A DNA stretch of 33,742 bases. It comes from Bdellovibrionota bacterium (GTDB taxonomy: Bacteria; Bdellovibrionota; Bdellovibrionia; Bdellovibrionales; JAEYZS01). The notes below the pieces were generated by a model. The model searched no databases. It worked only from the letters and a program-made list of their open reading frames with translations, and was not told where the DNA came from. Of the stretch, positions 1 to 16,552 are shown one piece after another. Location: the NCBI GenBank assembly GCA_963169515.1, contig CAUJEF010000152.1, positions 1 through 33,742 of the forward strand. Direction: 5' to 3'. The position numbers and the translations under genes were made by a program. Position 1 is the first letter of the stretch. Each line of letters starts with the position of its first letter.

Positions 1-522
1 GCGCACGTTATCGATGGATCCCTATTGCCTTCAAATGAATATATCGCTCTACCGAGCAAAAAAAGAATTGTAATACACTCAATCCGAAACCATAAACACA
101 TTTTAAAAAGCGCAAGCAAGGGCGAGGCTGTTACGCTATCAATTAACACAAATTTGGATCGAGGGGATCTGCTCGTCCCCTTAAAAAATAAAATACGACA
201 TTCAAAGAGGCTAGACGCCATCATAATTTGGTTTTCACATACGCCACTAAAGGCCGGAATTGACGTTACGCTTCAGAGGATGGCTTCCACTCAACCCGCA
301 ACAATTGAACATGTACACACTAAATTTGACCTAGAAGTCTTTGGGAAACAAATTGCCACGGACAAGCTCGAAATAAATGATACTGGGATTGTCACTATCA
401 TGTCCTCTAATGACATTTATTTTGATGACTACCAAAATTGTAAGAAGATGGGAGCTGGAACAATTACAGACAGAAACAATGGAAAGGTCTTAGGGGCCTT
501 TCTTCTTAAAGGAAACGTTTAA
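1..522 (+). CDS. cysN: Sulfate adenylyltransferase subunit 1 (CysN), C-terminal portion, truncated by window start
   Basis: Frame 1 is open from base 1 (AHVIDGSLLPSNEYIALPSKKRIVIHSI...). Post-GTPase beta-barrel domains resemble CysN: GDLLVPL..., DAIIIWFSHTPLKAG, GAGTITDRNNGKVLGAFLL. The listed TTG start at 25 is probably internal. Confidence 0.85.
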   Translation, partial: AHVIDGSLLPSNEYIALPSKKRIVIHSIRNHKHILKSASKGEAVTLSINTNLDRGDLLVPLKNKIRHSKRLDAIIIWFSHTPLKAGIDVTLQRMASTQPATIEHVHTKFDLEVFGKQIATDKLEINDTGIVTIMSSNDIYFDDYQNCKKMGAGTITDRNNGKVLGAFLLKGNV

Positions 523-1055
523 TGGTTATTTGGATCACGGGCCTCCCCAGCTCAGGAAAAACTACCCTAGCACAACAGTTAGTAATTTTGTTCGAAAAAA
601 ATAGAATCCCGTGCGAGCATATCGATAGTGATCAAATTCGGAAGGTTTTTTCAAATACTGGATATTCGAAGTCCGCACGAAACGAACACACTAAAATGGT
701 CGGATATTGGGCAAGCAGGCTTGAGCATTTTGGAGTTGTGCCCATTGTCTCATTAATTTCGCCCTATGAAGAGTCTCGCAACTACGCCCGGCGTGCTTGT
801 TCTGATTTTTTTGAAATCCATTTAACTACTGCTTTGACAGTATGCGAGTCTCGAGATCCAAAGGGTTTATATAAAAAAGCACGGAATGGGGAAATTCGAG
901 AGTTCACCGGCATAAGTGCTCCGTACGAAGCCCCAACCAATGCAGAACTTGAGCTGGATACTGGCACTCTATCCATCTGCGATTCTACACGCCTGATAGT
1001 AAACCACCTGAATACCCGAAGTGGAAAATATTTATGGAATTCATGTCTGAAATAG
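522..1055 (+). CDS. cysC: Adenylylsulfate (APS) kinase
   Basis: P-loop GLPSSGKTTLA plus DPKGLYKKARNGEIREFTGISAPYEAPTNAELELDT, the APS kinase signature. Overlaps the cysN stop. Confidence 0.93.
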   Translation: MVIWITGLPSSGKTTLAQQLVILFEKNRIPCEHIDSDQIRKVFSNTGYSKSARNEHTKMVGYWASRLEHFGVVPIVSLISPYEESRNYARRACSDFFEIHLTTALTVCESRDPKGLYKKARNGEIREFTGISAPYEAPTNAELELDTGTLSICDSTRLIVNHLNTRSGKYLWNSCLK

Positions 1056-1402
1056 ATTTCCAACGCCTGAAAGCAAAAATCCACCAGCGCGGCTACATTC
1101 GAACTGACCTCCGCGGAACATCGATGTTGCCCCTATTGAAAGATGGCCAGGAAGTTTTAATACAAAAACTGACAGCGGAATTGAAGACTTTTGATTCTAT
1201 TGTTTTCTGGAATGGTAAAGTCTTAATTTGTCACGTAATTAAACATATAAATTCAATTTCAAAAAGCTATGTAACGACCGGCCTACTCCTTCAAAAAGAA
1301 GACACTCCCGTCATGGAACATCAGATTCTTGGACAAGCCACAATTAAAATTCCATTCTTTTTAAAAGTGTATTTAACAATTAAATGGAAACTCAAGGATT
1401 GA
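1034..1402 (+). CDS. S24/S26-like peptidase (signal-peptidase/LexA-fold family)
   Basis: RGTSMLPLLKDGQEVLIQKL (SMxP motif with candidate Ser), then FDSIVFWNGKVLICHVIKHI (His-containing box). Start overlaps the cysC end; internal ATG at 1043 also possible. Confidence 0.7.
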   Translation: MEFMSEIDFQRLKAKIHQRGYIRTDLRGTSMLPLLKDGQEVLIQKLTAELKTFDSIVFWNGKVLICHVIKHINSISKSYVTTGLLLQKEDTPVMEHQILGQATIKIPFFLKVYLTIKWKLKD

Positions 1403-1766
1403 TCAGCGTGATTAACCCCAGCTTTTTTAATTCGTCCGCAAATTTTTTCAACTGGCTTTTAACAGCGTGCTTAGATCTGCCTGCGTCGACCAAGCGACTC
1501 GAAATGTGCTTTAAGGAACTTTTGCCATCGATCAAGACCCAAGCTTTGGCCGCTAAACCATCTATTGTGTAGCATATGGACATTTCCTTCAGATCAATAA
1601 CTGTTACACTGCCATCTTGGTTCGATTTCGTCAAAACCGATCGCCTTTTCCTAAGCATAGAGCGTAAACTGGCCGACTTCATATCCATTACACTAAGGCT
1701 AAACCACGGGCCCTGCAATGTACTAGTTAAATACCAAATGTAATGATACTGCCGCACCTTTTCCAA
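1392..1766 (-). CDS. PqqD-like / RiPP recognition element (RRE) protein
   Basis: SVTVIDLKEMSICYTIDGLAAKAWVLIDGKSSLKHISSRLVDAG...LKKFADELKKLGLITL matches PqqD fold layout. True start may be internal (Met at 1688 or 1682). Confidence 0.7.
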   Translation of the reverse strand: MEKVRQYHYIWYLTSTLQGPWFSLSVMDMKSASLRSMLRKRRSVLTKSNQDGSVTVIDLKEMSICYTIDGLAAKAWVLIDGKSSLKHISSRLVDAGRSKHAVKSQLKKFADELKKLGLITLINP

Positions 1767-1828
1767 ACTCTAATTTATTTGCCAGGCCAATAAAAAAATG
1801 GGACGCTTCAGGCTTACAGGGGCGGATT

Positions 1829-1999
1829 ATGTCGAATGACAAAAGAAGTAAAAAGGCCATCCAAAAAGGGACTGCCACTACCACTGCCCAAAGCAGCTCC
1901 GAAAAAAACTTTAAATTTGGTCAAATAAAAAAAATAGCCTCAACACGTAAACAACACAGGCCAATTATTCATGGCGGATCAGGTACCTGCACCTCATAA
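1829..1999 (+). CDS. Candidate RiPP precursor peptide (56 aa), absent from the supplied ORF track
   Basis: Hand translation: MSNDKRSKKAIQKGTATTTAQSSSEKNFKFGQIKKIASTRKQHRPIIHGGSGTCTS*. AGGGG upstream of ATG; Lys-rich leader-like N-terminus; Gly-Gly then Ser/Thr/Cys-rich C-terminus. Lies between RRE genes and overlaps the sulfotransferase start. Confidence 0.65.
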   Translation: MSNDKRSKKAIQKGTATTTAQSSSEKNFKFGQIKKIASTRKQHRPIIHGGSGTCTS

Positions 2000-2762
2000 G
2001 CAACCGAATATAAAGCCGTATGCGCTGCTAGGGACCGCACGCTCAGGATCGACGCCTTTTTTTCGCCTAACGTCACAATACATACAGCAGCATTCCAACC
2101 AACTCGATGCCCATGAATTTTTGATATATTTAGGTCAAAAATACAAAATAAATAAAGATTATTCCATAGAATATTGGGGTGCTGGAATCTCTGACCCAGC
2201 AAGATTGCCCGGCTTTGGGTCACCTCAGTTCCATAAACGCCTTAACTTTATCCGCAAAAACTATCACCGCTATTATCTGAAGTTCTTTGCATCTATGATG
2301 ACTCCCGATGTTCAACGCTGGGCCATGGACAGCTATCAATGGTTACTTATTGAACGACGAGACTTATTTCAACAACTTCTTAGCCGACTTATTAGTAAGC
2401 TAACAAATCATTGGTATAGCAATGAAGGGACAAACCTATTACAAAATTCTCTCATCGCCCCCTGCCGCGAGGATGGTCGATGTGTCTACATCGATTTTTT
2501 TGCAGAGGAAATGATCACCTACTTTCAAATAAAGAATTATTTGGGCGATCGAGCTCGAACAGTTTACTACGAAGACTTTGTGACCCAACCGGTTGAAATA
2601 ACTCTCGAAAAAATTGGCTTTTCTCAACCGTTTGATATAACCAAATTTGAATGGACGTGTCGGCAAAACCCCATGGATAAATCTTCGATTTTTAAGAATA
2701 TTGGTGAAATACAGCAATGTTACAGGGCCACCGTCTTGCAGAGCTTTTGTCCCATCAAATGA
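1971..2762 (+). CDS. PAPS-dependent sulfotransferase family protein
   Basis: N-terminal 5'-phosphosulfate-binding-like loop LLGTARSGSTPFFRL; WLLIERRDLFQQLLSRL; VYYEDFVTQPVEITLEKIGF; NPMDKSSIFKNIGEI typical of sulfotransferases. Confidence 0.75.
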   Translation: MADQVPAPHKQPNIKPYALLGTARSGSTPFFRLTSQYIQQHSNQLDAHEFLIYLGQKYKINKDYSIEYWGAGISDPARLPGFGSPQFHKRLNFIRKNYHRYYLKFFASMMTPDVQRWAMDSYQWLLIERRDLFQQLLSRLISKLTNHWYSNEGTNLLQNSLIAPCREDGRCVYIDFFAEEMITYFQIKNYLGDRARTVYYEDFVTQPVEITLEKIGFSQPFDITKFEWTCRQNPMDKSSIFKNIGEIQQCYRATVLQSFCPIK

Positions 2763-2787: not shown

Positions 2788-3081
2788 ATGATCAACCAAA
2801 TATCAAAAAATAAGATTCCAACAAAACCCAGGGGGGTTTTGTCCAAGCGTGTAAACAAAAACAAAATAGTAATTCAACGCCTAGGCCTGCCTGACAGTTT
2901 TTTTTTCATCGACTTTGTTGCAGCTGAGGCTTGGGATTTAATGAATGGCTCAAACAGCTTCAGCCAAATAGTTGCATTACTTAAAGAAAAACACCCGGAA
3001 GCCACTGTTAATCAAGTAGAGAGCAAGTTGATGGACTTAGTCAATAGCCTTATTAAAAATAAACTTGTGCAAATGGCTTGA
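2788..3081 (+). CDS. PqqD-like / RRE protein
   Basis: KIVIQRLGLPDSFFFIDFVAAEAWDLMNGSNSFSQIVALLKEKHPEATVNQVESKLMDLVNSLIKNKLVQMA. ATG at 2788 fits better than the track start at 2647, which lies inside the sulfotransferase gene. Stop abuts the LanB ATG. Confidence 0.72.
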   Translation: MINQISKNKIPTKPRGVLSKRVNKNKIVIQRLGLPDSFFFIDFVAAEAWDLMNGSNSFSQIVALLKEKHPEATVNQVESKLMDLVNSLIKNKLVQMA

Positions 3082-6018
3082 ATGACAAAAATTAAATGTA
3101 CTGATTTTTTTATAGTACGATATCCAACCTTACCCGCATCCATTTGCTGCGATCTAGACCGTAAAAAAACTGTCGCGCTCATGTCAAATCCCACTATATT
3201 AAAAGCGGTCCAGGTAGCCTCGCCCGTATTTATCGAACATTGGAACAGTAGAAAAGAAAATGATAAGTTGATAATAGATAAAGCCTATCAATATCTTGTA
3301 AGAATGTCATCGCGAACCTTGCCGTTCGGGGCTTTTACCTCTGCAATAACCGGTAAAATCCAAAACACAAATAGCTTAATTCCTCCCAAATTGGATGATC
3401 TTATTTTTAATTTTTATTCTGATGAAGTTGAAGTCGACAAGATTTACAAAGAACTGTTATCGGACGTCAAAACTCTTCAAAATGCAAAATTTTTTTTAAA
3501 TCCAACCATTCGTTTCTTGAACTCAACCACTATTCGCTTATGGTCGTGGAAATGGGAAAAAGGGCAAAGAGATTATCAAGAAGTTTTTCTTAAAATTCCA
3601 CGCCACACATTTTGCGCCATAAAACAAATTCAAAAAGATCTCTGTTATATCGATATAGCAAAAATTTTTACAAAAACAGGCGTCTCCTCAAAAAACCTCC
3701 ATGCATATGTAATGGACTTGCTTGAGCACAAAATTATTTTCCCAGACTTTCACCCTCGCAGCAGTGGGTTCAGTTCAAATCTTAACCGTTGGGCTAAGCT
3801 GCTACCCCATTCTTCAATAAAAAAGAAAATCGAAAAATACAGATCCAGCTTGGGCGCCTACACCAACAAAAACCTCGCCACAGCACCAAACAACAACGTA
3901 ACAGTAATGGTATCCGCAAGGACCGCGCAGAGCTTATCCCATACAACCGTCGAAAGCGTCAGGCTCACAGCACAAAATATGATTCGTGCTTTCGGGCGAA
4001 GGTCCTATGTTGCCAACCAAAACTCTACGGTCGGAGTTTACAAAAAAGAGTTCCTATTAAAATTTGGTACCTCTGCCGTACCGCTATTGGATGCCTTGAG
4101 CCTATTTAATGCTACAAACAACAACAATAATTCTTATCTCGCTGATGGGTTGCTCGAATGTTTTTGGCAGAAACGGTTTTTCACCACTCCCCCTCAGGAT
4201 GATTTGCCAGGATGGAACATTAATCTTACCCAACATGATTGGGTCGATTTGTTTGAAATAGACTCTGCCATAATGAATGCTTCTGACCCCACCCCAAGCT
4301 CTGGCACAATATATTTTTCTCTGTTCGACAACTCGACTGTGATTAATCGAATTCTCGGCTGGTCAGCGGCAAAAATGATTTCTCGCTACTGCCTAAATGA
4401 TTCTTTATTGGTGAAAGAATTGTCAAAATTTAATGAATTCGATCGGTCGCGTTATGATGAACTTGTTTTTGCTGAATTGGAAAATTTTGACACAGGATAC
4501 ACAGCAAATATCTCCAAACGCCCGCCCCTGTTAAGCCATGAAATAAGATTATTTTCCGGACCAGACGCGAAGCTCAAGAACATCAAATTAAACGATCTCT
4601 ATATCCTTCTTCGAAACAATAGGTTTGTCCTCTACTCCGATTCTTTAAAAAAAGAAATTGTACCTCAGTTAAGCGCTCCCATCTGGCCAGGGACGTCGAT
4701 AATACCCGCTGTGCTTTATCGGTTTTTAGCGCTGCTACGTTCTGATTTAGAGTGGCCATACGTTAAACTTATGTTTGGTAATCTCGAGCAGAATGAGCAT
4801 CTTCCAAGAATTACATTTGGTCCAGTGGTCTGTCGGCCTGAAAGTTGGCTTTTGGACCCAAAAAGGATTTTGGCTGCTCTAGAATCCAACAATCTTAACA
4901 CGCTTAAGTTGCCCGACAAGATAAACTGGATCGAATACGATCGAAAAACTCCTATTTTTTTCAAATCAGATCAAAGTGTGTCTGTATTTAAGAGGGGACT
5001 AAAGAAGCTTGCTGGCAAAAGCGCAACCGTTTATCTCGAAGAAATAATCTATGATTTCAATTCTCCCGCAGATGCTTTTAATGAAATTGTATTACCATTC
5101 TATAATGAGACCTATATCCGAAAACAATTCAAAATACCTGACCTTGCCTATTCCAACACTCGCCGCAGGGTAGAACCGGATTGTATCTACTTCCAGTTTT
5201 ATTGTAGCGCAGAAAACGACTACTTTTTAAGCTCAGAACTCGCTCCATTTTTAAAGAGTCAAAAAATTAACAACTATTTTTTTATTCGTTTTGATCAACC
5301 AGATTACCATCTTCGTTTGCGCATCTTTAGCTCCATTAAATCCCATCGTGATGTCCATAGTACCTTGTGGAAAAAGGCGTCTGGCTGGCTTGCAAATGGA
5401 ATCATTAGCGATTTCAAAGTATGTCCATATATTAAAGAGCTCGAAATTTATAGCGGCCCCCAAGGGGTAAATATCTTTGAAAAACTTAGCGTTATAGATA
5501 CGAGGCTTGCTTTAGGGTTCCTTAAGTCTTCTCCAGAGAACAGATTTAAAGATCACACCCTCGATGCCGAAACCTTCGATTTTTTGACAATGAGCGCGCT
5601 TAGCTATGCCCATTTGTTTTGGCCAAGTTATGGGGATCATATTTTAGAAATTAAAAATATTATAAAAAAACAAACACCCATCGCAAGTGTATCAGACAGA
5701 ATATCTAAAGCATCGTATCAAGATCTCAGACGCTCGCTTATGAAACGCACCTTGGACGCACGTAATGAATGTTGGGCTACGTATAAAAAGTGTTCGCACT
5801 TGCGCCGTGATGCAATTATTCAGTTTAGAAAAAATAAGAAAAACAAATCTATTCAGGTCGAAGTTTCTGTATTTTTTGAGAGAATGTTTCACCTTATGAA
5901 TAACCGTATATTCAGCCAGAACAGTGTCATCCATGAAACTCAATTATTACTTACAGTCCTCGCTCTCCTGGAGCGAGAACAGGCATTGGCAGCTCATCGA
6001 AATGAAAAAACTATTTAA
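3082..6018 (+). CDS. LanB-type (SpaB/NisB family) dehydratase with fused C-terminal elimination (thiopeptide-type biosynthesis) domain
   Basis: N-terminal YLVRMSSRTLPFGAFTSAITGKI (LanB R-x-TPFG-type motif). C-terminal YFQFYCSAENDYFLSSELAPFL...NNYFFIRFDQPDYHLRLRI...FERMFHLMNNRIF, typical of the SpaB C-terminal domain. 978 aa. Confidence 0.88.
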   Translation: MTKIKCTDFFIVRYPTLPASICCDLDRKKTVALMSNPTILKAVQVASPVFIEHWNSRKENDKLIIDKAYQYLVRMSSRTLPFGAFTSAITGKIQNTNSLIPPKLDDLIFNFYSDEVEVDKIYKELLSDVKTLQNAKFFLNPTIRFLNSTTIRLWSWKWEKGQRDYQEVFLKIPRHTFCAIKQIQKDLCYIDIAKIFTKTGVSSKNLHAYVMDLLEHKIIFPDFHPRSSGFSSNLNRWAKLLPHSSIKKKIEKYRSSLGAYTNKNLATAPNNNVTVMVSARTAQSLSHTTVESVRLTAQNMIRAFGRRSYVANQNSTVGVYKKEFLLKFGTSAVPLLDALSLFNATNNNNNSYLADGLLECFWQKRFFTTPPQDDLPGWNINLTQHDWVDLFEIDSAIMNASDPTPSSGTIYFSLFDNSTVINRILGWSAAKMISRYCLNDSLLVKELSKFNEFDRSRYDELVFAELENFDTGYTANISKRPPLLSHEIRLFSGPDAKLKNIKLNDLYILLRNNRFVLYSDSLKKEIVPQLSAPIWPGTSIIPAVLYRFLALLRSDLEWPYVKLMFGNLEQNEHLPRITFGPVVCRPESWLLDPKRILAALESNNLNTLKLPDKINWIEYDRKTPIFFKSDQSVSVFKRGLKKLAGKSATVYLEEIIYDFNSPADAFNEIVLPFYNETYIRKQFKIPDLAYSNTRRRVEPDCIYFQFYCSAENDYFLSSELAPFLKSQKINNYFFIRFDQPDYHLRLRIFSSIKSHRDVHSTLWKKASGWLANGIISDFKVCPYIKELEIYSGPQGVNIFEKLSVIDTRLALGFLKSSPENRFKDHTLDAETFDFLTMSALSYAHLFWPSYGDHILEIKNIIKKQTPIASVSDRISKASYQDLRRSLMKRTLDARNECWATYKKCSHLRRDAIIQFRKNKKNKSIQVEVSVFFERMFHLMNNRIFSQNSVIHETQLLLTVLALLEREQALAAHRNEKTI

Positions 6019-7411
6019 GCAAAATTGGTTCTTACTTCTGGTCGGTTCGTTTTTAGTTCTTTCCGCATGGGGCAGGATTAACTTGCCAGCTTTTTGGGAT
6101 GAAACTAAGGTGTATTTTAGGCCTCTTTTTTGGATGTATGAAAATAACGGGAACTTCTTTTCTCTTGCCCCTACAAAATTTGATCGCCCGCCGGGGCTGC
6201 ATTTATTTTATCTTCCATTCCTTTGGCTGTTTGGACCCCACGTTGTAGTTGTCCGCGTCCTGAATGTAATATTTTTCTATATTGGGCTATTTTTTTTCTA
6301 CAAAGTTCTAAGCAGGCAGAACGCCACAACTGCCCAGGTGACAACGGTATTTTTCCTGCTAACACCCATTGTTGAAGTTTATTTTGTACAATATATCGGC
6401 GATGCTCAGCTCTTCATCTTATACTCTGCTGTGCTATATGCCCTTACCTTTTATAAAGATAAATATGTAACCATTTTCATTCTAGGTTTTTTAAGCGGAC
6501 TCGCAAGGGAACCTGCAGTTTTTCTCACCCCTGCAGTTCTTTTTTATTATCGATATGAAAATAAGAAGTTAAAAAAAAATGAATGGCTGGCCTCTTTCGG
6601 GCCTTTTTTCGGTTTCTCGACGGCCATACTCATCACCTTTTTGAAAACCAGATTATTTTTTAATCATTTAACAATCGACTCTGGTCACATAAACTTTTTC
6701 CTAAACCTTTTTGAGAGACTAGACATTCTCAATCGAGCCTTCATAGTCCCTTATAGAATTCTGCCTTTGCTGGGGTTTGCTTCAATCATGTTTTTCTTGA
6801 ATCGGAAGGCGCTTCGAGTTTCTGCATCTGACGCTTACTGTTTGATTATTGGACTTGCAAATCTAACTCTATTTTCTAGTCACACACTTGCCCTGCCAAG
6901 GTACTTTTTTGCTGGTTTTCCATTTATATTATATCTTTTAATCAAAATCTGCTTTGCAGGCTCGACTTCAAAAAGGATGAAAGCCATAATAACAACACTT
7001 ATTTTAGTCCCTGCAATATTTATTGGCACCCCCAAAGTCAAAGACCAAAAAGGCTTTTATTTCATGACAGGCTATCAAGATACGATGGAATATATAAAAG
7101 TGTTAGGGGTCCATAAAAAGGTAATAGCTACAGTTAAGACGGAACTCAGAAGTGCGGACACAATTGCAACCTCCTGGCCTTTCATTTCGATTCTTGAATC
7201 CAAATATGCTGGATATGGACCTCCCGGTGAATTTAATATCACCGCTGATTTAGAAAAGCTCATTGTACCACCACGTGCTATTCTATGGACCAATTTCCCC
7301 GAACAAATACCTCGCGGAGAGATCGACAAAATTTTATCTCATGCACAATATAGAGAAACTGTATTCGATTATCCACCGATTAAAATTCGCCTTTTCCTGA
7401 AGCCCAATTAA
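6002..7411 (+). CDS. GT-C fold membrane glycosyltransferase (ArnT/PMT-like)
   Basis: Multiple TM segments; early acidic motif FWDETKVYF and TKFDRPPGLHLFYLPFLWLFG. ATG at 6002 overlaps the LanB end. Confidence 0.78.
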   Translation: MKKLFKQNWFLLLVGSFLVLSAWGRINLPAFWDETKVYFRPLFWMYENNGNFFSLAPTKFDRPPGLHLFYLPFLWLFGPHVVVVRVLNVIFFYIGLFFFYKVLSRQNATTAQVTTVFFLLTPIVEVYFVQYIGDAQLFILYSAVLYALTFYKDKYVTIFILGFLSGLAREPAVFLTPAVLFYYRYENKKLKKNEWLASFGPFFGFSTAILITFLKTRLFFNHLTIDSGHINFFLNLFERLDILNRAFIVPYRILPLLGFASIMFFLNRKALRVSASDAYCLIIGLANLTLFSSHTLALPRYFFAGFPFILYLLIKICFAGSTSKRMKAIITTLILVPAIFIGTPKVKDQKGFYFMTGYQDTMEYIKVLGVHKKVIATVKTELRSADTIATSWPFISILESKYAGYGPPGEFNITADLEKLIVPPRAILWTNFPEQIPRGEIDKILSHAQYRETVFDYPPIKIRLFLKPN

Positions 7412-7429: not shown

Positions 7430-7735
7430 ATGAAAAGTAAACAACTCCCCGGTACTTTTAGATTTGCTGAAGGTATTTTTATTTGCAATTCACTGAACTC
7501 CCTCCAGTTGGTCAAGATACATCGCTCATCTGGCGTCTACGATCTGGATGGTTTGGTGGCTCAAATCGTAAGAAAAATTGACGGAAAAACTTCCCTACAG
7601 ACAATTGTAGAATATATTGCATCCCAAAATAATATAAATATTGATGATCTTGCCGCAGAAACCACACACTTAGTCGAATACTTACTGGCTGAAAACTTAA
7701 TTAAGATCCAATCAGACTACATCGATATGAATTGA
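7430..7735 (+). CDS. PqqD-like / RRE protein
   Basis: SGVYDLDGLVAQIVRKIDGKTSLQTIVEYIASQNNINIDDLAAETTHLVEYLLAENLIKI. Confidence 0.72.
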   Translation: MKSKQLPGTFRFAEGIFICNSLNSLQLVKIHRSSGVYDLDGLVAQIVRKIDGKTSLQTIVEYIASQNNINIDDLAAETTHLVEYLLAENLIKIQSDYIDMN

Positions 7736-8826
7736 TCTTCCGTAGGCTGAAGCAATTTTACTTTCTTTAGCTCAACAATATTAGAGCGAAGCTGTTCGCA
7801 CGGGGCGGCAAGGTCCAGCACATTCATAGCCCCTCCAAACATTGAATAGAGATGTAATTTTTGATCAATACAAATCACACTAATATCTTCAGCTGGCCTA
7901 AAGCGTTTGCCATCTAGGCTCAATACAAATATTTTTCTCATACTCTCACTCAAATCTACATCAGTAATATTAGCGCTAGACGTGGGGCTGAACGCAACTC
8001 GCAACACTCCCAAAAGGCCTGCGACATTGCTTACGCGATGATAACATTTTTCAAAAAAAGAAAAGCCACTTAAATTTGTTGAAAAGAGTTCTTTTAATAT
8101 AACGCGATAAGCTTCCGAAGTTTTCATTCTGGAGGCCAATGCACAAAACCTTTGCGCACGGCCACAGTGGTAGAAACGCAGCAGATAATCCACTACCCCT
8201 CGATCAAAATAAACTTTGGCCATGGCTCGACGATCGGCGACTATATTTCCTCCAGAAAGAAACAACCTCGTTGATAAGTCAGTGTCCTCAAACCTTGCCA
8301 AAGATTCATCAAACCCTCCAATTGCAACAAAAAAATCTTTGCGATAAATACACGCTGCCGTATTGACGGCAGGGCCAACTCCATTGCGATGTACTACAGA
8401 AATGGCGGTTCCACAATATCGGGATTGATTGAGCTTCTTGCGATAGACATTCAAAAAATTTTTCTCACCGTCAGGAATGACCTGTCCCAACGCAATTCCG
8501 AAATGAGCTTCGTCCAATCTGCGACGCAGAATATCAAGCCACATTTTATCTAACACAACATCGCTATCGATAAATGCCAAAAACTTACCTTTTGCTGCTG
8601 CTACCCCAAAATTTCGAGCTGACCCGGCGCCCTTTTTTTTACAGCTCACGATTTGGATGTCAAATTTTCTCGCAATTTCTACAGTACGGTCGCAAGAGCC
8701 ATTATCAACTAAAATCACTTCGCAATGGCGCCCCCCTCTATAGAGGTTCAAAATGGATTCTATAGTTGCGCCAATAGTCTTTTCTGAGTTTAGCGCTGGT
8801 ATAATAAATGTGGTATCAACTGTCAT
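7717..8826 (-). CDS. Family 2 glycosyltransferase with extra C-terminal domain
   Basis: TTFIIPALNSEKTIGATIESILN...VILVDNGSCDRTVEIA...FLAFIDSDVVLD...GGFDESLARFEDTDLSTRL. ATG at 8826 preferred over TTG at 8862. Confidence 0.88.
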   Translation of the reverse strand: MTVDTTFIIPALNSEKTIGATIESILNLYRGGRHCEVILVDNGSCDRTVEIARKFDIQIVSCKKKGAGSARNFGVAAAKGKFLAFIDSDVVLDKMWLDILRRRLDEAHFGIALGQVIPDGEKNFLNVYRKKLNQSRYCGTAISVVHRNGVGPAVNTAACIYRKDFFVAIGGFDESLARFEDTDLSTRLFLSGGNIVADRRAMAKVYFDRGVVDYLLRFYHCGRAQRFCALASRMKTSEAYRVILKELFSTNLSGFSFFEKCYHRVSNVAGLLGVLRVAFSPTSSANITDVDLSESMRKIFVLSLDGKRFRPAEDISVICIDQKLHLYSMFGGAMNVLDLAAPCEQLRSNIVELKKVKLLQPTEDQFISM

Positions 8827-8916
8827 ACTTGTGCTTTTATACCGAAATAGATTTTTAGACAATTACCTAAAATAATTCCTTGCCAAGTCATAGTCACATT
8901 GTCGTCTAATAATAAG

Positions 8917-9936
8917 ATGAAAACGTGGCTTATTACCGGTGGCGCCGGGTTTATTGGTAGCGCTTTGCTGCGCACAGCAATCGAGGGTGGGCATCGCTGC
9001 ATTGTTTTAGATAAACTCACCTACGCTGGCCAGATTCAAAATATCAAGTCAGTGATCAACGGCGAGTCGGCCGTTTTTATCAAAGGTGACATATGCGATT
9101 CCAATCTAGTCACGACACTCTTGAAAGAATATCAAGTCGATTACATTGTTAATTTAGCGGCAGAGACCCATGTCGACACTTCCATTTCTGATCCCGGGAA
9201 ATTTATTGACACAAATATTAGCGGTACCTATCGACTTTTAGAAGCCGCAAGAGAATATTGGGTAAACTTAAACCCCGAAAAAAAAAGATTCTTCCGATTT
9301 TTACATGTATCTACCGATGAGGTTTTTGGTGAGTTAAATGATTCTGGAATATTTAGCGAGACGACAGCCTATGCTCCTCGATCCCCCTACTCTGCCTCAA
9401 AGGCCGCTGCAGATCATCTTGTACAGTCCTGGCACCACACTTTTGGGTTACCAACAATTGTCACGTTAAGTTCAAATAATTATGGGCCCAGACAATTCCC
9501 AGAGAAATTAATCCCGCGAATGATAAGTTGCGCTATTCGAGAAGCTAATCTTCCTGTTTACGGTCAAGGGCTCAATATTCGCGATTGGATATATGTAGAT
9601 GATCACACCCGCGGCCTGAATCTTGCGCTTGAGTTTGGGAAACCTGGTGCCTCATACTGCTTCGGCGGTAAATCTGAACGTAAGAATATCGATGTGGTCA
9701 ATTCTATTGCGATGAATCTCAATACCCTAAAGCCTCGAAAAAATGGCGCCAACTACAAAGACCTGATATCTTTTGTAGAAGATCGACCTGGACACGATTA
9801 TCGCTATGCCATTGACTCAGCAAAAGCCGAACGAGACCTAGGCTTTACTCTTGTCACCAATTTTGAAGATGGCTTAAGAAAAACTATCATGTGGTACCTT
9901 AGCAATGCCGCTTGGCTAAAAGATATTGCAATATGA
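8917..9936 (+). CDS. rmlB: dTDP-glucose 4,6-dehydratase
   Basis: GGAGFIGS, LDKLTYAGQIQNI, HVSTDEVFGEL, YSASKAAADHLV, NNYGPRQFPEKLIP, RDWIYVDDH. Confidence 0.93.
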   Translation: MKTWLITGGAGFIGSALLRTAIEGGHRCIVLDKLTYAGQIQNIKSVINGESAVFIKGDICDSNLVTTLLKEYQVDYIVNLAAETHVDTSISDPGKFIDTNISGTYRLLEAAREYWVNLNPEKKRFFRFLHVSTDEVFGELNDSGIFSETTAYAPRSPYSASKAAADHLVQSWHHTFGLPTIVTLSSNNYGPRQFPEKLIPRMISCAIREANLPVYGQGLNIRDWIYVDDHTRGLNLALEFGKPGASYCFGGKSERKNIDVVNSIAMNLNTLKPRKNGANYKDLISFVEDRPGHDYRYAIDSAKAERDLGFTLVTNFEDGLRKTIMWYLSNAAWLKDIAI

Positions 9937-10670
9937 TCAACTGCGATTTGCACATTGGTGCAATTTTTATCGCGTATAATGCAGAACAGACATTAGAAAA
10001 TTTCTATAAAAACTTTCCTAAGTCTGAAGTAAAAACGATGATCCTCGTCGATGACGCTTCAACAGATGGAACTTATGGTTTGGCGTTGAAATTAGGAATA
10101 CCCACGTACAGGAATGCCCATAACCTAGGTTACGGAGGGAATTTAAAAAGAGCTCTTGCTCTAGCTGAAAAACACGGGATGGATATAATAATAGATCTCC
10201 ATCCTGATGGCGAATATGACGCCTCTGCAATACCTGCAGCAATTGAAAAAATTAGAAATGGAGCCGATCTTGTAATCGGAAATAGATTTACAAAAATAAC
10301 TGACCAAATAAATAGCGGCATGTATTTATGGAAACTCATTCCAATATTACTGCTAAATACAATTGCAAGGTATACACTCAATTTAAAATTGAACGACATT
10401 CATCAAGGATTTCGTGTCTACACCCGGCATATGCTAAAGAGTATCAATTATAAAGAGAATTCAAATAACTATCTTTTTAGTTTTGAACTAATTGTACAGG
10501 CGGTGATGGCAAATCTAGATATTGCAGAGGTGCCCGTAAAAACCCACTACGTCGGTAATAAACGAGGTGCCACGCTAAAACAAAGCACCCTATACTCATT
10601 AGGTGTTATCAGGATCATTGCGCTTTTCATCCTGTCTAAACTCGGCGCAAAGTCGCGGCTGTTCAGATGA
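9933..10670 (+). CDS. Family 2 glycosyltransferase, dolichyl-phosphate mannosyltransferase-like
   Basis: IGAIFIAYNAEQTLENF...ILVDDASTDGTYGLA...NLGYGGNLKRAL...DLHPDGEYDASAIPA...DLVIGNRF. Confidence 0.85.
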   Translation: MINCDLHIGAIFIAYNAEQTLENFYKNFPKSEVKTMILVDDASTDGTYGLALKLGIPTYRNAHNLGYGGNLKRALALAEKHGMDIIIDLHPDGEYDASAIPAAIEKIRNGADLVIGNRFTKITDQINSGMYLWKLIPILLLNTIARYTLNLKLNDIHQGFRVYTRHMLKSINYKENSNNYLFSFELIVQAVMANLDIAEVPVKTHYVGNKRGATLKQSTLYSLGVIRIIALFILSKLGAKSRLFR

Positions 10671-11890
10671 AGACGTGTCGTATTTGTAATAGCAGAAAAC
10701 TCCGCACATTTTTGTCATTAGGTGATATGCCCCTTCCGAATGGATTTCTTTTAGAGGATGAGCTTAAGAAAACCGAAGCCAAATACGATCTGAGTGTCAG
10801 TATTTGCAAATCATGCTCCCTTGTTCAGTTGAATACAGTTGTACCACCCGAATTGATGTTTACAAATTATTTATATATCCCCTCGACTTCTTCAACGATG
10901 CTTAGCCATTTCGAAAAAATGGCTGATGATTTAATTGAAAAGCTTAGGCTTACCCATGATGACCTTGTCTTAGATATTGGTTGCAATGATGGGACATTTC
11001 TCAACTTTTTTCATAAAAGATCTCTTCCTGCACTTGGAGTTGATCCGGCAAAAAATCTTATCCCCCCCGTGCAAAAAAAAAATATCAACATAATTAGCGA
11101 TTTTTTTTCTAAAGTACTTGCAGAAACCCTAATCTTACAGGGCTACAAGCCTAAATTAATTACAGCAACAAATGTTTTAGCACATATTGATGATTTACAC
11201 GACTTTTGTTCTGGAGTGCATACCTTACTTCGTGGGTCTGGAGTCTTCGTGGCAGAGTTTCCATATCTCGTGGATCTCCTCGAAAAAACACAATTTGATA
11301 CAATTTATCATGAGCATCTCTCATACTTTTCCTTAACCCCTCTTGTTCGTCTGTTTGAAATGCACGATATGGAAATCTTTGATTTGAGCAGAATTCCCAT
11401 TCATGGTGGCTCAATTCGAATTTTCGTAGGAAAAACAGGTGATCATGTGGTTATGCCCTCTGTTGGCGCTTGTCTTCGCGAAGAGGAAAACCTCGAACTA
11501 AACGTAGATCATATTTATGATGAGTTCACAGCGAGAGTAAAATTTAATGCTCATTCTCTAACACAGTGCTTGAAAGACCTAAAGCGCTTAGGGAACCGCA
11601 TAGTCGGTTATGGAGCTCCAGCGAAAAGCAGCGTACTTTTGAATTACAGTGGTATTTCTAACGAACTCATCGAATATATTGTAGATTCAATTCCATGCAA
11701 ACAAGGACGTTACACTCCGGGGACAAGAATTCCTATCCATTCTGAAGAGAAACTGAATTTTGACAATCCTGACTATCTGGTGATATTTGCCTGGAATTTT
11801 AAAGATGAAATATTGAAAAAACAAGCTTCATTTTGCAAACGAGGGGGCCGCTTTATAGTCCCAAGCCCGTCCGTTATGATGTTGCCTTGA
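10667..11890 (+). CDS. SAM-dependent sugar C-methyltransferase (TylC3/NovU-like architecture)
   Basis: N-terminal Zn-binding CRICNSRKL...CKSCSLVQL; SAM motif LVLDIGCNDGTFL; FDTIYHEHLSYFSL; C-terminal RIVGYGAPAKSSVLLNYSGI...YIVDSIPCKQGRYTPGTRIPI. Confidence 0.85.
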   Translation: MKTCRICNSRKLRTFLSLGDMPLPNGFLLEDELKKTEAKYDLSVSICKSCSLVQLNTVVPPELMFTNYLYIPSTSSTMLSHFEKMADDLIEKLRLTHDDLVLDIGCNDGTFLNFFHKRSLPALGVDPAKNLIPPVQKKNINIISDFFSKVLAETLILQGYKPKLITATNVLAHIDDLHDFCSGVHTLLRGSGVFVAEFPYLVDLLEKTQFDTIYHEHLSYFSLTPLVRLFEMHDMEIFDLSRIPIHGGSIRIFVGKTGDHVVMPSVGACLREEENLELNVDHIYDEFTARVKFNAHSLTQCLKDLKRLGNRIVGYGAPAKSSVLLNYSGISNELIEYIVDSIPCKQGRYTPGTRIPIHSEEKLNFDNPDYLVIFAWNFKDEILKKQASFCKRGGRFIVPSPSVMMLP

Positions 11891-12668
11891 GATATTCAAC
11901 TGTTTCAAAAATTTCTCTCCCTAGAGGAGTTAGCTTGGATCGCACATCACCTAGAAACGCCCTCTCCACAAGTGACACTATACTTTCAACAGAAGTTAGT
12001 CTTTTCGAGCAGATATTAATTGTTCCAGTTTCATTGCTATCTTCTAAAACAGCTAACTTGTCAGCAACATTTCGCACATAAACAAAATCATGAGCAGGGT
12101 TCCGTGGGACAATGAGGGGGCGCTCCCCCATGGACAGTCTTTTAACAGTCGCTGAAATCAACTTTTCGGGCGGTTCATGGGGGCCAAACACATAGGATAT
12201 CCTTCCCCAAGCGCTGCTTAAGCCGCGAAAATCTGTTTCAAGAGCACTCTTTAATTTCAGCTTTGAAATCGAATAGTTTGATTTAGATAAAATCTCCGCT
12301 ATGGACCCTGCGATAACGGCTCTGCAACCTCCTGATTTTTTAAAAAAGTCTATCAACTTCAAACTTGCGTCTAACCAGAGAAAGTTTTGTTGTGCCATTG
12401 CATATTCTCCATGTTTCGTGTGCCAAGCTAAATGTAGCAAATGCGTCGGCTCAACTCTTTTTATTAAGTCGGCTACTTGTTGCTCATCCAGCAAATTGGC
12501 CTGATGCCAATTAATCTGTGGAGTGTTTGCCGGGACTGAAGCACGAGAAACCGCATGGATTTTAAAACCTTTTTTTATCAGAATCGGCAAACAATGACTT
12601 CCAATAAATCCTCTTGCCCCAGTTACGAGAATTTTTCTGTTCATTTGTGTGTGCATAATTGCTTCCAC
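11874..12668 (-). CDS. NAD-dependent epimerase/4-ketoreductase (SDR family)
   Basis: KILVTGARGFIGSHCLPIL; LLHLAWHTKHGEY; SISKLKLKSALE; HDFVYVRNVADKL. Confidence 0.85.
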   Translation of the reverse strand: MEAIMHTQMNRKILVTGARGFIGSHCLPILIKKGFKIHAVSRASVPANTPQINWHQANLLDEQQVADLIKRVEPTHLLHLAWHTKHGEYAMAQQNFLWLDASLKLIDFFKKSGGCRAVIAGSIAEILSKSNYSISKLKLKSALETDFRGLSSAWGRISYVFGPHEPPEKLISATVKRLSMGERPLIVPRNPAHDFVYVRNVADKLAVLEDSNETGTINICSKRLTSVESIVSLVERAFLGDVRSKLTPLGREIFETVEYLKATS

Positions 12669-13159
12669 ATTGGGAGCGCTTGGTCTCGCTCAGAAATGAT
12701 CGTGGCGCATGAAGGCCATTGAATAGCTAAATCCGAATCATTCCAACGAATCCCACTCTCAACCGCTGGATTATAAAAATCAGTTGTATGATAGAGAACA
12801 TCTGCAGGAGTATCGCCAAGCACACAAAATCCATTAGCAAAACCGGGAGGGATCCACAGTTCCAGACCATTTACCTCACTTAATTCTACAGAAAAATGCT
12901 TACCGCGAGTTGGTGATTCATTCCGAATATCTACGACCACATTCCATATGCTGCCGCGAACAACTCCGACAAGCTTTCCTTGACCAATTTGATAATGAAG
13001 ACCCCTCAAAGAATTGGGATAAGAGCGCGAATGATTTGTCTGAACAAAGTTTACATGAATATTCTGCTCACTAAACGTACGCTTATTCCAGAGCTCCTGG
13101 AAGAATCCTCGGCTATCTTGAATTTGATGATTCTTTAATATTTTCAAACCTTCAAACAT
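12641..13159 (-). CDS. rmlC: dTDP-4-dehydrorhamnose 3,5-epimerase-like
   Basis: DSRGFFQELWN, QTNHSRSYPNSLRGLHYQIGQGKLVGVVRGSIWNVVVDIR, WIPPGFANGFCVL. Confidence 0.9.
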   Translation of the reverse strand: MFEGLKILKNHQIQDSRGFFQELWNKRTFSEQNIHVNFVQTNHSRSYPNSLRGLHYQIGQGKLVGVVRGSIWNVVVDIRNESPTRGKHFSVELSEVNGLELWIPPGFANGFCVLGDTPADVLYHTTDFYNPAVESGIRWNDSDLAIQWPSCATIISERDQALPMWKQLCTHK

Positions 13160-14887: not shown

Positions 14888-16327
14888 TTATTTCAAAATT
14901 TCTATATTCCGTGTACTGGCCACCTGCTCGCCATTCCCAGTTGCTGTCACAGTGATTTTGCCAGCAGCTTTTGCAACCAAGGTTCCTGTATCATCTATTG
15001 TCGCCAACGTGCTATTGTCCACGCTCCATTTTACGCCCCCACCAAAACCGTAGGCTGTAAATTGAATTGAACCGTTTTTAGCCAATCTAAACTGGCCAGG
15101 CCAAACCTGTGGGCCGCCTTGAAATTGTCGAAGCGCCATATCTGCATTCGCCAACCCACCCGTTGCAACCGGCAGTGAAGATCCACGAACAGCATTTAGA
15201 ACTGCGTTTTTCAAATCCAAAACACTAAGCCCTGGATGGACGGACAATATAAGAGCGGCAATTCCCGCCACTGCAGGGGTAGCCATCGAAGTGCCACTCA
15301 ACCGACCGTAGGCTTTATTGCTGTTATTTAATGCAGACATAATATTTAAACCAGGCGCGCAAATGTGTGTTGTTCGGCGTCCGTAGTTCGACCAAGATGA
15401 AACACTGCCTGAGTTCGTCGAAGCAGCGCTACATACCGAAATCAAATTAGGTAATTTGTAGCCCGATGGATAGTTTGGGTTTGAATCTGTATTTTGCCCA
15501 CTATTACCAGCGGCCGCAAAAAACAAAACCCCTTTAGATCCGGCATAGACAAGAGAATCATACATTGCCTGATTAAAACTATCACCACCCCAGCTTGCGT
15601 TGATAATCCTGGCGCCATTGTTTGCGGCATACAGAATAGTTTGGATTCCACCCTCTGTGCTACCCGAGCCTGATGCGCTTAAGAATTTCACTGGCATAAT
15701 CGTCACCGACCAGTTTACACCGGCCAAACCCTTACCGTTGTTTCCTTCAGCTCCAATAATTCCTGAAACGTGAGTTCCATGCTTGTTATCATCATTGGAT
15801 TGGTTGGTATTTTTATAGAAATTCCAGCCATGAACATCGTCAATAAATCCATTTCCGTCGTCATCTTTGCCATTGCCATCAATTTCGCCCTTATTGGTCC
15901 AAATATGATTCGCAAGATCTTCATGGGACCATTTGACGCCCGTATCGCTAACCGCTACGACAACATTTTTTGAACCCGTCGATATGTCCCATGCCGGCCG
16001 CAATCGAAGCGCGTCACCCGACCACGCTTTCGGATCGTTTGGTTTTGCATAGGCTTTGATTTTGTGGTTGGGCTCTACATAAAGAACCCTTACGTTTGCC
16101 TTTAATTCAATTAACTTTTCTGGAGTGAATTTATCTTCTGGCTTTCCGACATAAAGATTCAATTCAGGAATAATGTTCGTAATAATCATTCCTGCATCCA
16201 TAATTATTGCTTCAGCCTCAACACCAACCGTGTCTTCTGTAAAACGAACAAGCAACTTATCATCAAAGAGATCGTTCGCAATCGCAGGTAAGCCAAAAAA
16301 TAAGACAAGTATGATTATTTTCTTCAT
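14888..16327 (-). CDS. Subtilisin-like (S8) secreted serine protease with C-terminal bacterial Ig-like domain
   Basis: Catalytic motifs VVAVSDTGVKWSHEDL, HGTHVSGIIGA, GTSMATPAVAGIAAL; C-terminal GGVKWSVDNSTLATIDDTGTLVAKAAGKITVTAT (Big2-like); signal peptide. Start at 16327 with upstream GGAGG. Confidence 0.93.
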   Translation of the reverse strand: MKKIIILVLFFGLPAIANDLFDDKLLVRFTEDTVGVEAEAIIMDAGMIITNIIPELNLYVGKPEDKFTPEKLIELKANVRVLYVEPNHKIKAYAKPNDPKAWSGDALRLRPAWDISTGSKNVVVAVSDTGVKWSHEDLANHIWTNKGEIDGNGKDDDGNGFIDDVHGWNFYKNTNQSNDDNKHGTHVSGIIGAEGNNGKGLAGVNWSVTIMPVKFLSASGSGSTEGGIQTILYAANNGARIINASWGGDSFNQAMYDSLVYAGSKGVLFFAAAGNSGQNTDSNPNYPSGYKLPNLISVCSAASTNSGSVSSWSNYGRRTTHICAPGLNIMSALNNSNKAYGRLSGTSMATPAVAGIAALILSVHPGLSVLDLKNAVLNAVRGSSLPVATGGLANADMALRQFQGGPQVWPGQFRLAKNGSIQFTAYGFGGGVKWSVDNSTLATIDDTGTLVAKAAGKITVTATGNGEQVASTRNIEILK

Positions 16328-16552
16328 TTGTTCCTCCAGAATTTTGGTCACATTTAGGATGGCCGAAATTTTCTATACAGCCTAGCCCTTCCCCCGCATC
16401 GTTGTAAAACTTGGACTTTTTGCTGTAGAACTATTTATCAATATGAAACACATTATTCACCCTAACTACCTCAAACCCCAGTATTTCACAGCTCTGTGAA
16501 CTTCGACCCGGCAGTACATTTGCATTTTAAATAGAATATAAAGGGGGATCTT

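Follow-up and report, generated by a model that had tools for sequence, protein, structure and literature searches.

A candidate precursor peptide at a Bdellovibrionales locus combining LanB, PqqD-like RREs and a sulfotransferase-like protein

Enzymatic sulfation of a bacterial peptide is exemplified by RaxX, which is modified on Tyr by the PAPS-dependent sulfotransferase RaxST in a system comprising neither a LanB nor RREs. In actinomycetes, sulfotyrosine lanthipeptides are produced with the help of the sulfotransferases SslST and SscST and dedicated PAPS cassettes (PMC12135136). In the nisin system, an FNLD box in the leader peptide is bound by the RRE of the dehydratase NisB (PMC8546558).

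The locus described here resembles the sulfotyrosine lanthipeptide clusters in gene content, as it combines a precursor candidate, a lanthipeptide enzyme, a sulfotransferase (assigned by motif) and a PAPS cassette. However, while the actinomycete enzymes target Tyr, this residue is absent from the entire 56-aa peptide of the present locus, which moreover stems from a member of the Bdellovibrionales, encodes discrete RREs and an S26-like peptidase but no LanC, and has a relative (in genome G133) devoid of any lanthipeptide enzyme. A bacterial peptide and a PAPS sulfotransferase are also shared with RaxX/RaxST, sulfation being a prediction in our case, but that system differs in its Tyr target and in lacking LanB and RREs. 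As in class I lanthipeptide systems such as that of nisin (NisB, PDB 4WD9/6M7Y), a full-length, two-domain LanB is present and a leader box is placed like the FNLD box; unlike in the nisin system, the genome contains no LanC, equivalents of T89 and R826 are lost, three separate PqqD-type RREs are encoded and the core would comprise only about seven residues. Literature searches by title and abstract, covering lanthipeptides in Bdellovibrio or Bdellovibrionales and precursors linked to a sulfotransferase and PqqD, returned no matching system. The combination of LanB with a sulfotransferase and a PAPS cassette, no LanC and a Tyr-free core raises the question of whether bacterial peptides are enzymatically sulfated on Ser/Thr and, if so, whether such sulfation competes or cooperates with glutamyl-dependent dehydration. 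We suggest that the 56-aa ORF encodes the precursor of a RiPP from a Bdellovibrionales sulfotransferase/RRE/S26/ABC system that gained a LanB, a reading to which we assign a probability of roughly 0.6.

The window, i.e. the whole 33,742-nt stretch of DNA analyzed, corresponds to one entire contig; the genome to which it belongs (G000) is 2.4 Mb in size and 96% complete. A preliminary description of this DNA had listed a precursor ORF, a sulfotransferase-like protein, a PqqD-type RRE, LanB, a GT-C-like protein and a second such RRE, in this order. Coordinates and Pfam matches bear out this arrangement, and the ORF encodes exactly the 56 residues claimed, with AGGGG 6 nt ahead of its ATG (Table 1). 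A further RRE (RRE 1, on the minus strand) adjoins the ORF upstream, preceded by the S26-like peptidase, CysC and the C-terminal part of CysN; the CysDNC cassette, the peptidase, an ABC exporter, the absence of LanC and the loss of T89/R826 from LanB had all been omitted. The ORF overlaps the start of the sulfotransferase gene (ATG at 1971, the sole plausible canonical one) by 29 nt. Its product begins with a Lys-rich stretch, continues with an FGx[IV]K box and ends in a short Ser/Thr/Gly/Cys tail, a design that recurs in peptides of G133 and G029, each of which represents a further family within the order.

Table 1. Location of features in the window and of a LanB-adjacent protein at other loci
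Feature	Position	Strand	Basis or remark
CysN, C-terminal part (sulfate adenylyltransferase large subunit)	1-522	+	NCBIfam CysN profile positions 251-404; cut by contig edge
CysC, adenylylsulfate kinase (PAPS maker)	522-1055	+	PF01583 E=2.6e-46; TIGR00455 above cut-off
S26-like peptidase, candidate leader peptidase	1034-1402	+	TIGR02228 E=1.8e-5, below curated cut-off
PqqD-like RRE 1, divergent from precursor	1392-1766	-	PF05402 E=0.0013, below cut-off
SD-like AGGGG	1818-1822	+	ATG 6 nt downstream (sequence)
Precursor candidate	1829-1999	+	56 aa, pI 10.8
Putative leader recognition box F28-K-F-G-Q-I-K-K-I36	1910-1936	+	
Predicted core G50-S56 (GSGTCTS), after I47-H48-G49	1976-1996	+	Alignment A6 and precursor sequences; predicted cleavage site
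Divergent PAPS sulfotransferase-like protein	1971-2762	+	PF13469 only E=0.03, below cut-off; motifs
PqqD-like RRE 2	2788-3081	+	PF05402 E=3e-6, above cut-off
LanB dehydratase, full length, glutamylation and elimination domains	3082-6018	+	PF04738 E=2e-40; PF14028 E=9e-26
Polytopic membrane protein, GT-C-like	6002-7411	+	9 hydrophobic segments, WDE and RPP loops; putative, by motif and topology
PqqD-like RRE 3	7430-7735	+	PF05402 E=1.5e-5, above cut-off
GT2 glycosyltransferase with C-terminal extension	7717-8862	-	PF00535 E=6e-29
RmlB-like	8899-9936	+	Pfam
Second GT2	9912-10670	+	Pfam
Sugar C-methyltransferase	10667-11890	+	Pfam PF08484 and PF08421
Epimerase	11874-12668	-	Pfam
RmlC	12641-13159	-	Pfam
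320-350 aa protein beside LanB	L013:5050-6069		
320-350 aa protein beside LanB	L014:1273-2241		
320-350 aa protein beside LanB	L015:9588-10634		
320-350 aa protein beside LanB	L017:9793-10773		

The closest relative of the locus was found via a search for S26 homologues in 359 genomes (61 positive), of which 15 neighborhoods were examined. In this genome, G133, LanB is absent; a 66-aa ORF (MAKNKNAKKKTAKAKKTKVKKKSQNDIKVFKGGFGRVKMFGKLSVSNAPVSVFACAGTGTITMTGT) is followed by an RRE-like gene, a GT2, a sulfotransferase (PF13469, 9.7e-7), a 273-aa ORF, an S26 gene, a PqqD RRE (Pfam, 9.6e-10), CysD and CysNC, and an ABC pair lies 5 kb from the cluster. Identities to the G000 proteins amount to 68% for the ABC ATPase, 56% for CysD, 52% for the ABC permease, 46% for CysC, 41% for GT2 (over 205 aa; L132:8226-9359 in G133) and 30% for S26. 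AAGGA precedes the ATG of the 66-aa ORF, and its stop codon overlaps the start of the RRE gene as ATGA, indicating that the G133 precursor is a translated operon gene. As the closest relative lacks LanB, the window looks like a sulfotransferase/RRE/S26 peptide system to which LanB and the GT-C-like protein have been added. The preliminary description had missed that the sulfotransferase, the RREs and the PAPS supply thus form the part common to both loci.

Homologous small ORFs were looked for and were found, in both G029 and G133, beside sulfotransferase and RRE-like genes. Of 212 small ORFs, the 66-aa ORF of G133 scores highest against the window peptide (alignment score 51, shuffle p ~0.001) and likewise against the G029 peptide (p ~0.0007). 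In G029, a 58-aa ORF (MAKKTKRIKSKARAKSKATGRKDSEASKVGFGTIKQVKTTFLNQKIDVYADTTDPYGC; L013:8143-8319) shares its contig with LanB, S26 and sulfotransferases (PF13469, 1.7e-8 and 2.4e-20), and a 120-aa ORF (L013:327-689) without a Pfam match looks RRE-like by eye. When 510 ORFs of 30-130 aa from five other Bdellovibrionota LanB loci were scored against the window peptide, the precursor candidates of G029, G114 and G267 took the top three places; the G029 peptide ranked best (p 0.018) and, like that of G267 (p 0.014), aligned in register on the FG box, while the G114 peptide scored well but aligned out of register and was not counted. These pairwise similarities are short and weak, and composition accounts for part of them. 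The FG-box motif was recognized only once the sequences had been inspected, but it does not enter into the rank tests. A single-sequence search of 369 genomes of the phylum with the peptide yielded only chance-level matches; with a profile of alignment A6, which comprises the three peptides, only G000, G029 and G133 stood well above background among 140 genomes of the order. On the same G029 contig, an asparagine-synthase-like protein (PF00733, GATase_7; L013:6147-7970) is encoded between LanB and the precursor, and two ORFs lie adjacent to each other, L013:704-1636 (sulfotransferase) and L013:1633-2238 (201 aa, partly similar to the sulfotransferase).

One might argue that the ORF arose by chance upstream of the sulfotransferase gene and that the real substrate is encoded elsewhere, given that 282 ORFs of 30-130 aa are present in the window, that codon usage is uninformative (rank 52 of 131) and that the ORF overlaps the next gene. 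Yet the very same ORF ranks first among these 282 against both the G029 and the G133 peptide, so that the matches are reciprocal and involve partners that both lie beside sulfotransferase and RRE-like genes. Together with the SD site, the position and the collinear leader-to-core alignment, this leaves a chance origin very improbable, and the candidate role of ORF 1829-1999 as a RiPP precursor appears well supported by sequence comparison.

In alignment A6, the FG-x-[IV]-K segments coincide, and the window residues IHG align with VYA (G029) and VFA (G133). Counterparts of the putative leader box read GFGTIKQV in G029, GFGRVKMF in G133 and FEFGSLGRI in G267. In the Cys-rich, lanthipeptide-like precursors of G114, G267 and G193, the tripeptides VYA, AYA and AYA, respectively, directly precede the cores. 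S26 peptidases follow a rule of small residues at positions -3 and -1. The [VIA]-[YHF]-[AG] site resembles this rule and thus predicts GSGTCTS as the core, which is probably the segment released from the window peptide. The earlier proposal that the peptide is the substrate and its last 6-8 residues the core gains support from the equally designed G029 and G133 peptides and their gene neighbors. The LanB/LanC loci of G114, G148, G193 and G267 further resemble the window in having a related LanB and a basic leader start, with [VA]-Y-A preceding the core in three cases, and G148 also shares an ABC exporter and S26 module. They differ in possessing LanC and multi-Cys cores, and inspection of their genes revealed no sulfotransferase.

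The S26-like peptidase of the window bears Ser in GTSMLP and His in ICHVI, has no predicted TM segment and is 35% identical to an S26-like protein encoded beside LanB/LanC in G148. Each of the five LanB genomes other than G000 has an S26 homologue, against 60 of 358 genomes overall (hypergeometric 1.1e-4); in several of the five, it lies away from the LanB locus. LanB specificity of S26 is ruled out, as 61 of 359 genomes carry homologues. Across the phylum, loci devoid of LanB repeatedly place an S26-like peptidase next to ABC permease and ATPase genes (L131, L134, L138, L139, L141, L143, L144). RRE 1 resembles RREs of G141 and G207. In G207 (L141:10388-11249), the gene after a PqqD RRE encodes a protein of 169 aa that contains repeats of YYFGGIE and YDFGGIEEYNLQEI, an FG-box-like N-terminus and a Peptidase_S74 chaperone domain (5e-17).

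The putative sulfotransferase was assigned by motifs read directly from the sequence, i.e. a P-loop (LLGTARSGST), YYEDF and RTVYYEDFVTQP. A PDB search revealed no relative, an AlphaFold model was unusable (pLDDT 35), and a search across 359 genomes placed the protein outside the G029/G133 sulfotransferase family, whose only other member genome among the 359, G259, showed no similar peptide. The remainder of the PAPS cassette resides on contig C163 of the same genome, in which an ABC permease and ATPase are followed by a PF01507 gene, the single PF01507 match in G000, and by the N-terminal part of CysN, which is truncated at the contig end. We read the PF01507 gene as CysD, because it directly precedes CysN and matches its positional equivalent in G133 (56% identity); and since the window opens with the remainder of CysN, C163 most likely lies directly upstream, separated by a small gap. 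With the single PF01507 gene read as CysD, no CysH was found in G000, and PAPS is presumably made for sulfate transfer. Without a Tyr in the peptide, Ser/Thr residues or a sugar would be left as acceptors of any sulfate group.

LanB is encoded in only six of 369 genomes of the phylum (G000, G029, G114, G148, G193, G267). LanC (PF05147) was detected in the latter four but not in G000, nor in G029 (99% completeness). HMMER and MAFFT alignments show that the window LanB retains the equivalents of NisB R14, R83, R87, R464, R784, R786, E823 and the C-terminal His, while T89 is replaced by Leu and R826 by Ile; for D121 and D299, no aligned positions were obtained. As R826 is also missing in three LanC-bearing relatives, the losses do not decide whether the enzyme is active. 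Identity as a PEARL-type amino-acid ligase is ruled out by the presence of both LanB domains. In GTDB contigs, a single-protein scan found no close LanB relatives, and an alignment scan found 80 distant LanB loci, many with LanC-like matches. Next to LanB, four Bdellovibrionota loci encode a conserved 320-350 aa protein with a weak Glycos_transf_1 match, which has no counterpart beside the window LanB (Table 1).

A full-length LanB with most catalytic residues kept, a core with an S-x-x-C spacing and a single Cys, and the sugar-nucleotide genes downstream would also fit a route akin to class I lanthipeptides only, in which LanB dehydrates the core, Cys54 closes on Ser51 spontaneously or through an unrecognized cyclase, and the sulfotransferase, PAPS and GT genes belong to a neighboring polysaccharide locus. 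However, the sulfotransferase start overlaps the precursor, its gene sits between precursor and RRE 2, G133 keeps sulfotransferase, RREs and precursor together without LanB and supplies the third homologous core, and G000 and G029 both lack LanC. We therefore consider this route unlikely.

Under the preferred reading, i.e. a sulfotransferase/RRE system that gained LanB, the Lys-rich leader would be captured via F28-K-F-G-Q-I-K-K-I36 by at least one of the three discrete RREs, which would offer the short core at the C-terminus (probably GSGTCTS) to the modifying enzymes. CysD, CysN and CysC would make PAPS, and the sulfotransferase may O-sulfate a core hydroxyl or a sugar set by the GT2 or the GT-C-like protein. 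LanB, using glutamyl-tRNA, would glutamylate other Ser/Thr residues and eliminate the glutamate to yield Dha/Dhb. Without LanC, a Ser51-Cys54 thioether would depend on spontaneous ring closure; otherwise, the dehydro residues would remain open. Finally, the S26-like Ser/His peptidase would cut after [VIA]-[YHF]-[AG], and the C163 ABC exporter would secrete the product. Several observations run against this explanation. Owing to its divergence, the window sulfotransferase has no significant Pfam match, and it falls outside the G029/G133 family; S26 and ABC pairs often occur in the phylum where LanB is absent, and codon usage gives no support. In addition, G133 apparently makes its peptide without LanB, and the window LanB, as aligned, has no equivalents of T89 and R826.

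A bolder view would be that these loci define a distinct Bdellovibrionales RiPP group, in which RREs and a PAPS sulfotransferase act on core Ser/Thr hydroxyls, LanB is an optional later addition, and the products carry O-sulfated Ser/Thr, dehydration possibly proceeding by loss of either sulfate or glutamate; we regard this as a tentative idea, possible but less than probable. The comparison set of LanB-only, sulfotransferase-only and combined systems is small and suited to co-expression.

The CysNC, sulfotransferase and GT genes could instead serve a surface polysaccharide. In a variant of this idea, the peptide would be a carrier or scaffold for such a polysaccharide, with the RREs docking it, GT2 and the GT-C-like protein glycosylating it, the sulfotransferase decorating the glycan, LanB modifying the anchor and the ABC transporter exporting a glycopeptide. 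The exporter reads as a polysaccharide-like ABC-2 type, RmlB/RmlC, C-methyltransferase and GT genes adjoin, and G000 and G133 share a conserved GT2; but no counterparts of the sugar genes were noticed by inspection of the G029 and G133 regions examined, and the leader/core layout and the [VIA][YHF][AG] site match the phylum's Cys-rich lanthipeptide precursors, which renders a scaffold role improbable. An RRE-like C-terminal domain suspected in the GT2 at 7717-8862 was not confirmed by Pfam, an AlphaFold model of this protein was unusable (pLDDT 39), and the GT-C-like protein had no family match. The genes at 8899-13159 are a possible sugar supply of the cluster, to which their membership is uncertain. 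The C-methyltransferase, epimerase and RmlC genes near RmlB constitute a branched deoxysugar pathway. About 7 kb from the cluster, a subtilase is encoded at 14888-16351 on the minus strand (PF00082, 2.4e-58). As the proteases of class I lanthipeptides are subtilases, this enzyme may be an alternative leader peptidase.
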